Shown here: in pieces, positions 6,997 to 28,067 of the stretch
Layout of the letters: each line of letters starts with the position of its first letter
How positions within the stretch are numbered: position 1 is the stretch's first letter
From: Stenotrophomonas sp. ESTM1D_MKCIP4_1
GTDB taxonomy: Bacteria > Pseudomonadota > Gammaproteobacteria > Xanthomonadales > Xanthomonadaceae
Assembly: GCF_003086895.1 (NCBI RefSeq)
Contig: NZ_CP026004.1
Span: 560,084-624,083 of the forward strand
DNA length: 64,000 nt
Direction of reading: 5' to 3'
The notes under the pieces: generated by a model
Told to the model about the DNA's origin: nothing
What the model saw: the letters and a program-made list of their open reading frames with translations, nothing else
The model's database searches: none
Translations under genes and position numbers: made by a program

Positions 6997-7117
6997 CGGG
7001 AGGACTCCGGGTGCCGCGCACGCCCGCGCGGCGAAGGGGAGGAGCCACGGAGGCTGGCATGCGCCGAAGCCGCGGCGCCGCCGCGGTCATCCAGCGCCAC
7101 GCCCACCGCATCGCGAC

Positions 7118-7302
7118 CTGAGGCTTCCGGGCCGGTCTCCGGGCTTGCCGCCAGGTGGCGCGAGGCCACCGTCCAGGCGCCTTCCCATGCCGATGGCACA
7201 GTGGCGGTGTTGCCTGGAACAGACGTGCTTACCGTTGCGGGGGCAGCGCCGGCCTGGCGTGTTGCCACGCGTCACCGGCTTCCCGTTTCAACCTGCCGGC
7301 CA
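7118..7302 (-). promoter_or_regulatory. Cobalamin riboswitch in btuB leader
   Basis: Reading the minus strand from ~7300 down: GGGAAGCCGGTG (7272-7284), then the CCCCCGCAACGGTAA core (7230-7244), GCCACTGTGCC followed by GGGAAGGC (7179-7206), and the B12 box AGCCCGGAGACCGGC (7132-7147). These are the conserved blocks of the AdoCbl riboswitch in the right order. About 120 nt separate the B12 box from the btuB ATG and hold the expression platform. No clear run of T follows, so control of translation start is more likely than termination (inference). Confidence 0.92.
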
Positions 7303-7354
7303 TCGCCGCAGGTCACCTGGAAGTGCGCGCAGTCTACGGCATCGCGGCCGGCCC

Positions 7355-23654: not shown

Positions 23655-23760
23655 GGGGCGGCCGGGCGGGCTGCGCAGGACACGCCGTAAACCCATCCTT
23701 GGGGGCTCGATGGCGCCATCCATGGCGCCAACGGTCCTGCGCAGCCCGCCCGTCCGCCCC
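23655..23760 (+). repeat. Conserved-loop hairpin element, copy 1
   Basis: 27-bp arms 23655-23681 and 23734-23760 pair at 26 of 27 positions and enclose a 52-nt loop that starts ACGCCGTAAACCCATCC, continues GGGGGCTCGATGGCGCC and contains an inner hairpin GGCGCCATCCATGGCGCC. The loop is shared with copies 2 and 3; the arms are not. The 519-bp gap 23626-24144 has no gene. Confidence 0.88.
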
Positions 23761-23809
23761 TCGACGGTTTCCTGCGGGCGCGGACGCATCAAACCCAAGG
23801 CGGGGGCAA

Positions 23810-23865
23810 GGGCAAAAGCAAAAGCAGAAGCAGAAGCAGCGGCTTCGGCTTCTGCTCTTGAATTT
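23810..23865 (+). repeat. GCARAA low-complexity tract with inverted end
   Basis: Repeats of GCAAAA then GCAGAA (about 23812-23840) end in GCGGCTTCGGCTTCTGCTC, which folds back on them. It sits between two hairpin elements. I see no coding sense in it. Confidence 0.6.
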
Positions 23866-23928
23866 GAATTTGATCCTTCTTCCTCCGGCTACCCCGCGGG
23901 AGAAGGAAGGCGTTGGAAATGTCTGAAG

Positions 23929-24034
23929 CGTTGGGGAGCGGGGGCGGCGCAAAACCGTGAGGCGCATGGATGCGCCGACCGAGCCCCCATGGATGGGTTT
24001 ACGGCGTGTTTTGCGCCGCCCCCGCTCCCCAACG
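23929..24034 (-). repeat. Conserved-loop hairpin element, copy 2 (inverted)
   Basis: Perfect 27-bp arms 23929-23955 and 24008-24034 (CGTTGGGGAGCGG... and its complement) enclose a 52-nt loop. Its reverse complement starts ACGCCGTAAACCCATCC, continues ATGGGGGCTCGG, and has an inner hairpin GGCGCATCCATGCGCC. Arm length and loop length equal copy 1, but the arm sequences are unrelated. Confidence 0.9.
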
Positions 24035-24083
24035 CCCACGCAAAACCAACCGCAGGCTCTCAATCACCCCAGGTACCCAGCAC

Positions 24084-24113
24084 AAAAAAAAGGACGGCGC
24101 CTCAGTGCCGTCC
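24084..24113 (-). terminator. Terminator of the first Ax21-like gene
   Basis: On the minus strand GGACGGC...GCCGTCC (24092-24113) is followed by eight T (24084-24091). Confidence 0.88.
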
Positions 24114-24144
24114 CTCGATAGCCCCCGCGCAGCGGAAACAATGG

Positions 24145-24768
24145 TCAGAAGCTGGCGCGCACGCCCGCCCTGTACTCGGATACATCCTTGTCGAACTGGC
24201 CTTCCAGCACGACGCCCCAGGTATCAGTGATGTTCACCTGGCCGCCCACCACGCCATACCAGCGTGCGTCCTGGCCATCGCCGCCGTTGGCGTAGCCGCC
24301 CTTCAGCCAGCCTTCGAGACTGTCGGTGAATCTGCCACGCACACCCACCATGCCCAGCACCTGGTTGAAGCGGGACGTCTGGCGGGATCGCTCGTCGCCG
24401 AGGCGGTAGTCCGACGTCGCCGAACGGTGGTTCCAGGCGAACTCGCTGGTGAAGTCCACGCGGTCGCCGATCGGTGCGTGATATCCCAGGCCCAGATAGG
24501 GAACGTCGAGGGTGGTCTTCACCCGCGCGGCGCCTGCGCGTTCGCTTCCGCTGACGCGCGAAGCGCCGACGATCACGTGGAACTGCGGTGCAACCGCAAA
24601 CGATCCGCGCACATAGCCGCCGTCTGCGGTGATGTCACCGGCGCTGCCGGCGTCCAGTTGCAGCCGGTTCCAGCCACCTTCCACGTAGGTATAACTGAGT
24701 TCGTCGCTGGCCAATGCCAGCAGTGGCGTTGCACACAACAGGCCGACGGCCAGAAGCATCTTGCGCAT
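24145..24768 (-). CDS. Ax21-like outer-membrane protein, copy A
   Basis: A 207-residue protein with a signal peptide (MRKMLLAVGLLCATPLLALAS). The mature part opens LSYTYVEGGWNRLQ and ends VRASF with a terminal Phe, as expected for a small beta-barrel. Alternating strands (GGYVRGSFAVAPQFHVIVG, GWLKGGYANGG) resemble the Ax21 family of Xanthomonas and Stenotrophomonas outer-membrane proteins. The start is set at ATG 24768 with AAGGA 7 bases before it. It shares its layout and many residues with the next gene. Earlier reports of Ax21 as a signalling molecule are disputed, so no signalling role is assigned. Confidence 0.7.
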   Translation of the reverse strand: MRKMLLAVGLLCATPLLALASDELSYTYVEGGWNRLQLDAGSAGDITADGGYVRGSFAVAPQFHVIVGASRVSGSERAGAARVKTTLDVPYLGLGYHAPIGDRVDFTSEFAWNHRSATSDYRLGDERSRQTSRFNQVLGMVGVRGRFTDSLEGWLKGGYANGGDGQDARWYGVVGGQVNITDTWGVVLEGQFDKDVSEYRAGVRASF

Positions 24769-24860
24769 GTTCAAGTCCTTGTGGGGCGCGAGGGCGCCAG
24801 GCAGTGCCGGCCCGTACCGCAGTATGGGCCGAGCAGGTGCCTGGAAAACGCAGGTTGGAA

Positions 24861-25487
24861 TCAGAAGCTCGCGCGGACGCCGACGCGGTACTCGGCAAAG
24901 TCGTCGTAGAACTGGCCTTCGGCAACCACGCCCCAGGTGCGGTTGAAGCTGACCTGGCCGCCGACAGTGCCTGTCCAGGTGCCGTCGAAGTGGTTGTTGC
25001 CGTCCATGTAGCCCGCCTTCAACCACGCCTCGGTCCTTGCCGAAGGCTTGCCACGAACGCCGAAGTTGCCCACGGCCGTGTTGACGGAGGTCCGGCTGCG
25101 GTAGGTCTCGCCGTCGAACTGGACTTCGCTCTTGCCTGTGCGGCGGTTCCAGGCGATGTCTGCAGTGAAGTCCAGGCGCTCGCTCAACGGCATGTGGTAG
25201 CCGATGCCCAGATGGGGCTGCTCGAGCGTGGTCTTGACGCTGGAATACGCGTAGTGGCTGGTGTCGCTGACGCGCGACCAGCCACCGAACACATTGACCT
25301 GTTCGGCGATGGCGAAGGAACCACGGATGTAGCCGCCATCGGCCTTGGGATCGTCGAGGGCATTGGAGCTGATCTGCAGCTGGTTCCAGCCGCCTTCCAC
25401 GTAGGTGTAGCTCATGCCGTCAGCGGCAATGGCCGTCAGAGGAGCGCCGAGCAGCAGCGTGGAGGCCAGGAAAAACTTGCGCATCAT
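24861..25487 (-). CDS. Ax21-like outer-membrane protein, copy B
   Basis: A 208-residue paralogue of the gene downstream. It has a signal peptide (MRKFFLASTLLLGAPLTAIAA), opens MSYTYVEGGWNQLQI and ends VGVRASF. Shared blocks include ADGGYIRGSFA, GYHMPLSERLDFT and a TWGVVAEGQF strand. AAGGA lies 5 or 8 bases before the two adjacent ATG codons (25487, 25484); either may be used. The two copies are 92 bp apart and probably arose by tandem duplication. No terminator separates them, so they may be co-transcribed. Confidence 0.7.
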   Translation of the reverse strand: MMRKFFLASTLLLGAPLTAIAADGMSYTYVEGGWNQLQISSNALDDPKADGGYIRGSFAIAEQVNVFGGWSRVSDTSHYAYSSVKTTLEQPHLGIGYHMPLSERLDFTADIAWNRRTGKSEVQFDGETYRSRTSVNTAVGNFGVRGKPSARTEAWLKAGYMDGNNHFDGTWTGTVGGQVSFNRTWGVVAEGQFYDDFAEYRVGVRASF

Positions 25488-25660
25488 GCGTGTCCTTATC
25501 GAGTGGCTATCCAGACCGGGACATGCAGGGACGTGACCCGGCTGCGACGTCATGTCGCTGGCCGAGTCTACCCAGATTTCACGCGCCGTAGACATCGTGC
25601 GGGGCCGCGGGCGAAACGGGTATCGATCCATTCAGGAAACGCGATACGTGCCGAGGACAC

Positions 25661-25695
25661 AAAAAAAGAGACGCCGCATTCGCGGCGTCCCTCTC
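25661..25695 (-). terminator. Terminator of rhlE
   Basis: On the minus strand ACGCCGC-GAAT-GCGGCGT (25671-25688), extended by weaker outer pairs, is followed by seven T (25661-25667). Confidence 0.88.
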
Positions 25696-25716
25696 TGCAT
25701 TACCTGATGCGGCAGA

Positions 25717-27138
25717 TCAGCCGGCGCGACCGCCGCCGTTGCCGCCCTGGCCACGGCCACGGCCGCCGCCATTGCCACCACTGCCACGGCGCTGGCCCTG
25801 GCCTGCGCCCGCACCGGCACGCTGCTGGCCGTTGCCACCACCTTCGCGACGGCCACCGCCGGTCTTCTTCGGGCCCGCATGTGCATGGCGCGGCGCATCG
25901 CCGTGCGGGCGACGCGCGTGGCTCTTGCGCGGTGCGCGCTCGCCGGTATCGTGCTCGGCCTTGCCCGGTGCACTGTTGCCCCAACGGATCGGCGTCTGCA
26001 GCTCGAAGCCGGGCACATCGCGGATGTCCATGTCACGGCCCAGCAGGCGGGTGATCGCGCGCAGCAGCTTCACTTCATCCTGCGCCACCAGCGAGATCGC
26101 CTGGCCGGTCGAACCGTTGCGGCCGGTACGGCCGATACGGTGCACGTAGTCCTCGGCCACCATCGGCAGGTCGAAGTTGATCACCTTCGGCAGCTCGTTG
26201 ATGTCGATGCCGCGCGCCGCGATATCGGTGGCCACCAGCACGGTCACGCGCCCGGCCTTGAAGTCGCCCAGTGCGCGCAGGCGCTGGCCCTGGCTCTTGT
26301 TGCCGTGGATCGCCGCGGTCTTGATGCCGGACTTTTCCAGGAACGTGGCCAGCTTGTCGCTGCCGTGCTTGGTGCGTGCGAAGACCAGGGTCTGCTCGCG
26401 GCTGTCCTGGGCCAGCAGGTGCAGCAGCAGGTCACGCTTGCGGCTGCCATCGACCGGGTGCACCTTGTGGGTGATGGTCTCGGCCACGGTGTTCTTCGGC
26501 GTCACCTGGATCTGTTCCGGGTTGCGCATGAACTCCAGCGCGAGCTGGCGGATGTTGTCCTCGAAGGTGGCCGAGAACAGCAGGGTCTGGCGGTTCTGCT
26601 TCGGCAGCTTGGCGAGGATGCGCTTGATCGACGGCAGGAAGCCCATGTCGAGCATGCGGTCAGCTTCGTCCAGGATCAGCACTTCGATGCCGGACAGGTC
26701 GACGCTGCGGCGCTCCAGGTGATCGATCAGGCGGCCCGGGCAGGCCACCAGCAGGTCCACGCCACGGCGCAGGATGTCCAACTGGTTGCCCATGCCGACG
26801 CCGCCGTAGATGCAGGCGCTGGGGATGCGCAGGTACTTGCTGTAGCCGCGCAGGCTGTCATGCACCTGGGTGGCCAGTTCGCGGGTCGGGGCCAGGATCA
26901 GCGCGCGCGGCTTGCGCGGGCCGGCACGCACTTCCTGCGAGGCGGTGCCCAGGTGCTGCAGCAGCGGCAGGCCGAAGGCCGCGGTCTTGCCGGTACCGGT
27001 CTGTGCACCGGCCAGCAGGTCGCGACCGGCCAGTGCCAGCGGGATCGCCTGCTGCTGGATCGGGGTCGGGTTTTCGTAGCCCTGCTCGGCAAGCGCACGC
27101 AGCAGGAAGGGCGCCAGGCCCAGGGATTCAAAAGACAT
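25717..27138 (-). CDS. rhlE: DEAD-box RNA helicase RhlE
   Basis: A 473-residue protein with all DEAD-box motifs in order: Q motif GYENPTPIQQQAIP, Walker A AQTGTGKT, PTRELA, VACPGRLIDH, DEAD (in LILDEADRMLDMGF), SATF, VFARTKHG, VLVATDIAARGID and HRIGRTGR. The tail from ~380 is basic, then glycine/arginine-rich (NGGGRGRGQGGNGGG), typical of an RNA-binding extension. RhlE-type helicases act in ribosome assembly, RNA decay and cold growth. A ~230-nt untranslated leader precedes the ATG (see the promoter entry), suggesting post-transcriptional control. Confidence 0.92.
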   Translation of the reverse strand: MSFESLGLAPFLLRALAEQGYENPTPIQQQAIPLALAGRDLLAGAQTGTGKTAAFGLPLLQHLGTASQEVRAGPRKPRALILAPTRELATQVHDSLRGYSKYLRIPSACIYGGVGMGNQLDILRRGVDLLVACPGRLIDHLERRSVDLSGIEVLILDEADRMLDMGFLPSIKRILAKLPKQNRQTLLFSATFEDNIRQLALEFMRNPEQIQVTPKNTVAETITHKVHPVDGSRKRDLLLHLLAQDSREQTLVFARTKHGSDKLATFLEKSGIKTAAIHGNKSQGQRLRALGDFKAGRVTVLVATDIAARGIDINELPKVINFDLPMVAEDYVHRIGRTGRNGSTGQAISLVAQDEVKLLRAITRLLGRDMDIRDVPGFELQTPIRWGNSAPGKAEHDTGERAPRKSHARRPHGDAPRHAHAGPKKTGGGRREGGGNGQQRAGAGAGQGQRRGSGGNGGGRGRGQGGNGGGRAG

Positions 27139-27373
27139 TGAGATTGCTCCAAGTACAAGAAACGCCTGTCCGAACGGACAGACGGGGGCAGATCAAACTG
27201 ATCGGCTGACTCGGAGCGTTCCCGTGAACCGCGCTGCGAGAATTGGGTGCAGCCGGCACGGAGCGCAGGCTGGAATGCGTGACGAACGGCGTCGGAGTGG
27301 GGGCGGGCGAGGAGGGCGGACCCAGATCGCCGGCGATCCCGGAGGGAAACGGACGGCCGCTGCAGACCCCGCA

Positions 27374-27403
27374 ATTCTAAACGATCTTCAAGACTCCACG
27401 CAA
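27374..27403 (-). promoter_or_regulatory. Predicted sigma-70 promoter of rhlE
   Basis: On the minus strand TTGCGT (27398-27403), 18-bp spacer, TAGAAT (27374-27379). Transcription would start near 27366, giving a leader of about 228 nt to the rhlE ATG. Based on motif match only. Confidence 0.5.
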
Positions 27404-27500
27404 AAACCCCTGTTCAGGTAGGGGGCCCTGCACCTGCGGTAGTGCCGGCCGCTGGCCGGCAACCCGAACGGCAACGTCAAAAGCTGGCTTCCCGAGGGTT

Positions 27501-27557
27501 GGCGGGGTGGGTCCGGTGGAGGGGGACGCCGTCAACCCATCCATGGAGTGCCCCGCC
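27501..27557 (+). repeat. Conserved-loop hairpin element, deleted remnant
   Basis: A left arm GGCGGGGTGG... (27501-27525) is followed by the start of the conserved loop, ACGCCGTCAACCCATCCATGG (27526-27546), then directly by CCCCGCC (27551-27557), complementary only to the outermost arm. The middle of the element is missing. Confidence 0.7.
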
Positions 27558-27586
27558 TTCTACAGTTGTGCGCGATCTATTGGAAC

Positions 27587-27625
27587 GGGGTCGGATCCCG
27601 TTGCTTCGCAACGGGTTCTGACCCC
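27587..27625. repeat. 39-bp palindrome, copy 2
   Basis: GGGGTCGGATCCCGTTGCT... ending TCTGACCCC. It is the inverted-orientation relative of 411-449 with the same length and inner arms CCCGTTGC/GCAACGGG. Confidence 0.75.
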
Positions 27626-27699
27626 AGATCTACTTCAATATCTGACAGATGTGCCGACCAACGGTCGGCACCTACCAACAGCGGAGTGAACCTGTCGAA

Positions 27700-27880
27700 G
27701 GCGGGGCACTGCGGGTTGGCGGGGTGTGAGCCGCATGGGCCCGAGGCATGCCTCGGGCGGGTTGGGCAGGACGCCCAACCCCGGTCTTGCCGTGTGCGCA
27801 GGACAGCGCACACGAGCAAGCGGCGACCAAGCCCCCATGGACGGGTTAACGGCGTCCCCGCAAACCCACAATGCCCCGCC
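27700..27880 (-). repeat. Conserved-loop hairpin element, copy 3 (enlarged loop)
   Basis: Arms 27700-27724 and 27856-27880 match at 22 of 25 positions. Two of the three differences become G-U pairs in minus-strand RNA. Read on the minus strand the loop begins ACGCCGTTAACCCGTCC and ATGGGGGCTTGGT, then has three further hairpins: GTGTGCGC/GCGCACAC, GGTTGGGC/GCCCAACC and CCGAGGC/GCCTCGG. Confidence 0.82.
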
Positions 27881-28067
27881 ATCCCACGGAATGCCGCTCT
27901 GGCTGTTGCTGTTGCCGGCCAGCGGCCGGCACTACCGCAGGTGCAGGGCTGCAAGCCCTGCCGCCCCCCACTACGGTAGGGTGGCCCGATGCCGCGCTGC
28001 AGCTTGGCTGTACCGCGCATTTGATTACACTTGAAACTTGTTTGCCCACGACTCCGGACACCCACCC

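Follow-up and report, generated by a model that had tools for sequence, protein, structure and literature searches.

What are the long hairpins that lie between positions 23,655 and 27,880 of this 64,000-nucleotide stretch of the genome of Stenotrophomonas sp. ESTM1D_MKCIP4_1 (the whole stretch is hereafter the window)? Two copies, A and B, form a pair, and a third, C, lies beside a remnant, D (Table 1). The original prediction proposed a mobile hairpin or a structured RNA, and both find support: the family shows covariation and strand-specific mispairs, and its copies are dispersed, often paired and variable between strains. The family is a divergent relative of Rfam TwoAYGGAY (RF01731, clan CL00106). 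We consider it somewhat probable (about 0.55) that its intergenic copies belong to a Gammaproteobacteria-wide dispersed RNA element able to bind a dimer of RsmA/CsrA and resembling miniature inverted-repeat transposable elements (MITEs) and repetitive extragenic palindromes (REPs); dispersal, structure, strand asymmetry, loop conservation and family identity are shown by the sequences, and we infer transcription, binding and effects on genes.

The core motif of the element occurs 54 times in the strain's own genome at up to one mismatch and the reversed pattern not at all, which excludes chance. A covariance model built from 31 own-genome copies gave 121 matches at E <= 1e-3, including at least 90 non-overlapping copies, the set used for counts below.

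The strand carrying GGA loops, opposite to that on which the core had originally been read, folds into a three-way junction in which the variable arms of 25-28 bp (P1) enclose two hairpins, P2 and P3. The expected layout of arms of about 27 bp around 52-nt loops was found in both window copies, with 27-bp arms that are 96% complementary in copy A, 28-bp arms that are 100% complementary in copy B, and 52-nt loops in each; on either strand the two copies had folding z scores of -8.1 to -10.6, and none of 200 dinucleotide shuffles of each folded as well. In an alignment of 31 sequences, 97.4% of cells pair, compared to 37.5-45.5% when the partner is slid by 1-3 columns; both partners have changed in 32 of the 43 pairs, and none of 500 column shuffles reached any of five measures. 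Forty-seven of the 54 core-motif copies have standard arms; in these, every one of the first 25 arm positions except position 24 is Watson-Crick in at least 42 copies, and position 24 is so in 35. The loop between the arms measures 52 nt in 191 of 228 copies, and the two GGA loops start 23 nt apart. Tandem G.A/A.G mispairs, which form pairs on the GGA strand only, occur in P2 of 33 of 139 distinct 52-nt loops, including that of copy B; copy A has Watson-Crick pairs at this place.

The covarying stems had been taken to argue for a folded RNA or a cruciform under selection. That argument gains from the very strong covariation and the strand-specific mispairs, but covariation of the arms is in itself no proof of selection, because template-switch correction of long palindromes would also yield wholesale paired replacement of arms. 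The accompanying claim that the arms share nothing was overstated. When A and B are aligned starting at the loop and moving outward, their left arms agree at 16 of 27 positions (shuffled mean 10.5; 112 of 10,000 shuffles reach 16), and arms across the family show a common G-rich pattern with subfamilies; we therefore rejected, as stated, the idea that the arms are unrelated target palindromes.

Of 77 loci retrieved in a scan with the neighbouring peptidase, we searched 63 for the orthologous site. A copy lay at site A in 16 and at site B in 15, weak matches in L131 (an assembly with runs of N and C) and L125 not being counted; records with such copies are titled Stenotrophomonas, except L099, [Pseudomonas] hibiscicola. 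At a given site the strains carry several arm versions, which differ from one another over long blocks, in the two arms together, and still pair; the core type changes too. At site B, for example, the arms of L112/L124 and L102/L103 differ wholesale and are paired, and at site A the arms of L155 pair poorly. Some strains keep remnants (one arm each of A and B joined together in L101, a single arm in L169, a core with nested hairpins in L125), and in others, such as L104, L107 and L109, the element is absent from the site. A copy scoring 90 bits was also present at L119:16415-16534, in a record titled Bacillus subtilis SK7B5 with a Stenotrophomonas-like peptidase (80% identity); this assembly looks mislabelled.

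Such paired arm differences at one orthologous site suit a purely mutational origin of the self-complementarity, in which template switching copies one arm onto the other and covariation is no sign of selection. We consider this origin very improbable, since a palindrome mutating without strand preference would show G.T and A.C mispairs equally. On the GGA strand, the inner 20 positions of 228 distinct copies, taken from retrieved loci only, many of them fetched with a GGA-strand model, and counting only copies in which at least 15 of the 22 inner pairs form, hold 148 G.T, 26 A.C and 104 other mispairs. Counted once per arm cluster and position (66 clusters), the numbers are 76, 24 and 89 (p 1.8e-7), and with one copy per arm cluster they are 42, 10 and 45. 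Model-free own copies, with 7 of the 54 left out as non-standard, show the same direction when read on the opposite strand (27 A.C, 3 G.T and 26 other), 9 of the 27 A.C mispairs falling at one position. Mispairs in the P2 and P3 stems are too few to show a strand preference. The G.U excess marks the GGA strand as special and already disfavors mutation as the whole story, which moreover leaves unexplained why both loops are conserved and why the short stems of P2 and P3 covary. An earlier hint of G-U pairing on the minus strand was correct for copy C, whose arm mispairs in that reading are two of G.U type and one other; copy C alone runs opposite to the family, in which the bias lies on the other strand. 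Orientation relative to replication was rejected as the source of the strand bias, as the GGA strand showed no replication preference among the listed copies (48 of 90, with origin and terminus assumed at 0 and mid-genome).

Both hairpin loops read C-ANGGAN-G. Rsm proteins bind 5'CANGGANG3', and the loops agree with the published Rsm motif, CANGGANG (PMC6849547). Taking one best copy from each of 66 genomes, the P3 loop gave C66 A65 N(T43 G16 A4 C3) G65 G66 A65 N(T46 C17 A2 G1) G66. The P2 loop of the same copies gave C63 A60 N G64 G64 A59 N G61, counts that include some misplaced windows (P2 and P3 of L068; P2 of L079, L232, L244 and L247-L249); the P2 loops of L232 and L244 have 5 nt. The loops and P3 are the most conserved parts of the element across the class. 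In the window, copy B has ATGGAT in both loops and copy A has ATGGAT and AAGGAT, so that the first Y of AYGGAY is loose. CsrA is a homodimer that accepts one motif per half (PMC4333381). The loop motif, the fixed spacing of both loops, the single privileged strand and the sequence-free stem together fit an RNA with two sites for dimeric RsmA/CsrA.

Under this reading, the working form would be RNA, or possibly single-stranded DNA, of the GGA strand. Its long stem, which could have nearly any sequence provided that it pairs, would hold the two C-ANGGAN-G hairpins at a set distance. Transcription running through a copy, from neighbouring genes or an unseen promoter, would allow the RNA to fold, after which each of the two loops could dock on one face of an RsmA/CsrA dimer. 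In a genome that has at least 90 copies, these might thus act together as a dispersed RsmA sponge and, each at its own place, as RsmA-responsive elements at 3' ends or between cistrons. MITE/REP-like movement, template switching inside the palindrome and conversion between copies are the probable sources of spread and arm turnover.

The family had at first gone unrecognised, which did not hold: it is related to TwoAYGGAY and has a core in common with the Yersinia palindromic sequences YPAL/RU-2 and with Ysr224. TwoAYGGAY was found in 2010 (PMC2864571), and a 2014 study predicted that it binds CsrA and described a tandem G.A in one stem (PMC4333381). Like TwoAYGGAY, the present element has, on the same strand, two hairpins with A-N-GGA-Y loops, a tandem G.A in one stem and a poorly conserved outer stem; in the window, A and B have the two loops and B the tandem G.A. 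Unlike TwoAYGGAY as far as it is described in the available text of that study (PMC4333381), the element is dispersed, paired and high-copy. In the strain's own genome RF01731 gave eight matches, all below its cut-off (best 34.4 versus 43 bits) and none in the window, and for missing the cut-off we file the family as a divergent relative instead of an annotated member. Listed copies are overlapped on the same strand by six of the eight; of the other two, one falls on a motif-found copy and one on no listed copy. RF01731 exceeded its cut-off in 3 of 12 genomes given, G503 (11 times), G065 and G715 (once); in G065 the match (46 bits, cut-off 43) at 1733477-1733613:+ occupies the place of our model match at 1733480-1733599:+.

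Two further named families share this core. RU-2 belongs to the same class as YPAL and its sequence is printed (PMC2759123); compared by eye, the published 168-nt RU-2 contains the same P2-P3 core and both GGA loops. Both are multi-copy and intergenic (PMC2229807, PMC2759123), as is the element here with at least 90 copies, and no CsrA link appears in the available portions of these descriptions. Ysr224 (RF02770, Yersinia sRNA 224) corresponds to the opposite strand of the same element, the one lacking GGA loops: in genome G796, 12 of 15 above-cut-off RF02770 matches coincide, on the opposite strand, with the 12 model matches listed. In the strain's own genome RF02770 gave 56 matches at E <= 0.01, all below its cut-off (best 40.8 versus 70 bits), and it also matched the E. 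coli control below cut-off. Ysr224 is listed as temperature-responsive in Y. pseudotuberculosis (PMC9029176) and was seen in several copies in Y. ruckeri (PMC12112432). We propose the name TwoAYGGAY/YPAL superfamily for the element, which is widespread in Gammaproteobacteria. In the literature searched, which covered few subscription papers, no listed title or abstract joined YPAL, TwoAYGGAY and Ysr224, reported the family in Stenotrophomonas or described a CsrA-binding test of TwoAYGGAY.

Other RNAs and repeats resemble the element in part. CsrB/RsmXYZ-type small RNAs and RsmU likewise have GGA hairpins and sequester, or are thought to sequester, CsrA/RsmA. The CsrB/RsmXYZ RNAs are single-locus and contain several GGA sites. 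RsmU comes from one 3' untranslated region and is reported only in Xanthomonas (PMC7694677), a description on which we rejected it as the same RNA; Alcanivorax CsrR1/CsrR2 were likewise set apart by their description as other RNAs (PMC9788540). SMAG and other GTAG/CGTC REPs are intergenic palindromes that also occur as dimers in the same genomes (PMC2613905, PMC3733652). These are 20-40 bp long and end in a GTAG or CGTC tag, whereas the element here spans about 105 bp and by eye its arm ends have no such tag, so REP identity was rejected. Other Rfam matches, mostly to microRNAs, stayed below their cut-offs, and the majority seem to be long hairpins matched by chance. Directly before one copy in G065, at L251:1410-1485, lies a naRNA4-like double REP hairpin (40 bits versus a 59.5 cut-off).

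We scanned genomes at increasing taxonomic distance with strict filters and a limited number of candidates, so that copy counts are lower bounds and some genomes with weak matches may have escaped; the E-values of the model are approximate. Matches occurred in 39 of 149 genomes and 16 of 54 genera of the family, in 53 of 200 genomes of the order, and in 43 of 274 genomes and 38 of 221 genera of the class. All 18 positive genomes in a phylum sample of 299 belong to the same class, the share of the 299 outside the class being unstated. When more candidates were scored, between 8 and 123 matches came up in each of twelve other family genomes.

No hairpin overlapped a gene called by codon bias at any of 40 own-genome sites picked among the listed copies, and the nearest hairpin often lay 60-95 nt beyond a stop codon; one pair has an open reading frame between its members. 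The 29 multi-copy sites comprise 17 between tandem, 7 between convergent and 5 between divergent genes. For other genomes, in which the gene caller was trained on the window alone, we hand-picked 56 single-copy sites and retained 50 distinct ones, five having no called gene on one side and the L080/L203 locus being given twice. Eighteen of these are tandem and co-directional, 10 tandem and opposite, 18 convergent and 4 divergent. The position of 46 of the 50 behind at least one gene's 3' end, together with the excess of convergent over divergent sites (p 0.004), indicates that copies sit behind genes.

This placement would suit a long hairpin at 3' ends whose role is to shield mRNA or have it processed, as an exonuclease block or RNase III site, or to end transcription, its loops being incidental. 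Yersinia ERIC repeats alter the stability of upstream transcripts and YPAL might do so (PMC2229807). We think such a role improbable as an account of the family, for it would need the stem alone and leaves the stronger conservation of the loops and P3 without a reason. Sites between divergent genes also exist, copies C/D of the window among them, and by eye no U-run directly follows either arm, which led us to reject an intrinsic terminator.

The strongest rival is a selfish mobile DNA hairpin of MITE or REPIN-like type with the same strand preference, in which an enzyme would read both loops and the neighbouring bulge on single-stranded DNA of the GGA strand and RNA binding would be irrelevant. 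The copies are dispersed and patchy among genomes, present or absent between strains at one site, and strongly clustered: of the 90 listed, 61 have a neighbour inside 1 kb, giving 31 neighbour steps of 1 kb or less compared to a mean of 1.8 for random placement. In 29 of these steps the GGA strands point apart, in none do they point together, and the other two lie within one direct tandem. This single order in 29 of 29 opposite-strand pairs recalls REPs and bacterial interspersed mosaic elements (BIMEs), as do arrays of 4-5 alternating copies, with starts about 140-230 bp apart, in genome G064 (L175, L177, L183). Single-stranded DNA tolerates G.T wobbles too, and Yersinia YPAL has reportedly been mobile in the recent past, with target-site duplications (PMC2229807). 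Here, no target-site duplication and no clean junction were seen when strains with and without the element were compared at one locus. The absence of a replication-strand bias also speaks against mobility of this kind. A BLAST search of plasmid and phage collections with one G118 copy as query found no match, nor did one core pattern in viral contigs, and with one query or pattern per collection we rejected a phage or plasmid origin. Finally, freedom at both N positions of CANGGANG is predicted by the Rsm motif and not by a DNA-reading enzyme. We hold a mobile hairpin without RNA function to be a serious but less probable account, and mobility may hold alongside RsmA binding. Elsewhere, at G000:C1:89402 and 90868, two half-cores face each other; each breaks off within the P3 loop, with TGAAGTGACCCCC coming next, which looks as though an insertion sequence had landed there.

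Several observations weigh against the favoured reading of a double RsmA/CsrA site. The 66 copies used for the loop counts were chosen by a model of own-genome copies, which favours these loop letters. A UUNA two bases past the P3 loop, followed by C-N-GCG, is about as conserved as the GGA loops and is not accounted for by CsrA/RsmA binding. Window copies C and D have no P2 loop. The preference for the sense strand in tandem sites of other genomes is weak and not significant (18 versus 10, p 0.18), in own-genome pairs the copy beside the upstream gene has its GGA strand antisense to that gene, and Ysr224, a transcript family of Yersinia, has its annotation on the strand opposite to the GGA loops. 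RsmU lacking all four predicted GGA motifs still bound RsmA (PMC7694677). CsrA is encoded in the strain's own genome, but its frequency is similar with and without the element, so that co-occurrence gives no help: with element and CsrA listings compared by reading side by side, CsrA was found in 39 of the 43 class genomes that have the element and in 195 of the 231 that lack it (p 0.35), or 35 of 36 and 176 of 200 among genomes at least 90% complete (p 0.14). In one of the genomes with the element, G513 (98% complete), no match to CsrA was found.

Table 1. Hairpin copies and associated features in the window (positions count from its first letter).
Feature	Positions	Strand	Arms	Loop	Apices and remarks
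Copy A	23655..23760	minus (structured strand)	23655-23681, 23734-23760	23682-23733	Read on the minus strand: P2 CATGGATG (23717-23724), P3 CAAGGATG (23694-23701)
Middle of pair A/B	23761..23927				No gene called; AAAAGC/GAAGC-type hexamer runs
Copy B	23928..24035	plus (structured strand)	23928-23955, 24008-24035	23956-24007	P2 CATGGATG (23965-23972), with tandem G.A/A.G; P3 CATGGATG (23988-23995)
Pair A/B	23655..24035				GGA strands of the two copies point apart
Copy D (remnant)	27501..27557	-			P3 and left arm retained, P2 lost
Copy C	27700..27880	+	27700-27724, 27856-27880	131 nt	P3 apex CATGGACG retained (27836-27843)

The enlarged loop of the third copy and the remnant upstream of it were both as first described. 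P2 of copy C is interrupted by about 79 extra nt of further hairpins and has thereby lost its ANGGAN loop. The same extra-hairpin block is nested in P2 of other copies (G000:C1:1829028 and L125 near 9500), which makes the insert itself a repeat; judged from a long match alone, L106:12129-12325 probably nests it as well. At the end of remnant D, positions 27547-27565 are complementary to 27692-27710, the outer end of the left arm of copy C. SMAG-type (GTAG) repeats lie in inverted orientation directly outside the C/D pair, at 27425-27472 and 27902-27949, and other pairs have REP-like hairpins also in their middles. An additional repeated hairpin of the form GGGGTCRGATCCC...GACCCC is present at 27585-27626 and between the members of several of 12 pairs inspected. 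The sole Rfam match in the window at Rfam's own thresholds is a Cobalamin riboswitch (7113-7335, minus strand, 91.9 bits).

If the favoured reading is true, a large class of apparently idle palindromes would be tied to a global regulator, and three separately named families would become one. In its boldest form, which we put forward tentatively and think unlikely, a mobile repeat with a double RsmA/CsrA site would have spread through Gammaproteobacteria, YPAL, TwoAYGGAY and Ysr224 would be one element, dozens to a hundred decoys would buffer RsmA, and these would be a main RsmA antagonist in Stenotrophomonas and its relatives. Xanthomonas has no CsrB-type homologue according to the available text of PMC7694677 and of a second paper, and the element would be a concrete candidate for what restrains RsmA in this branch of the bacteria. 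With its two loops fixed and its stem free in sequence, the element would also be a clean test case for distinguishing palindrome correction by mutation from selection acting on RNA structure.

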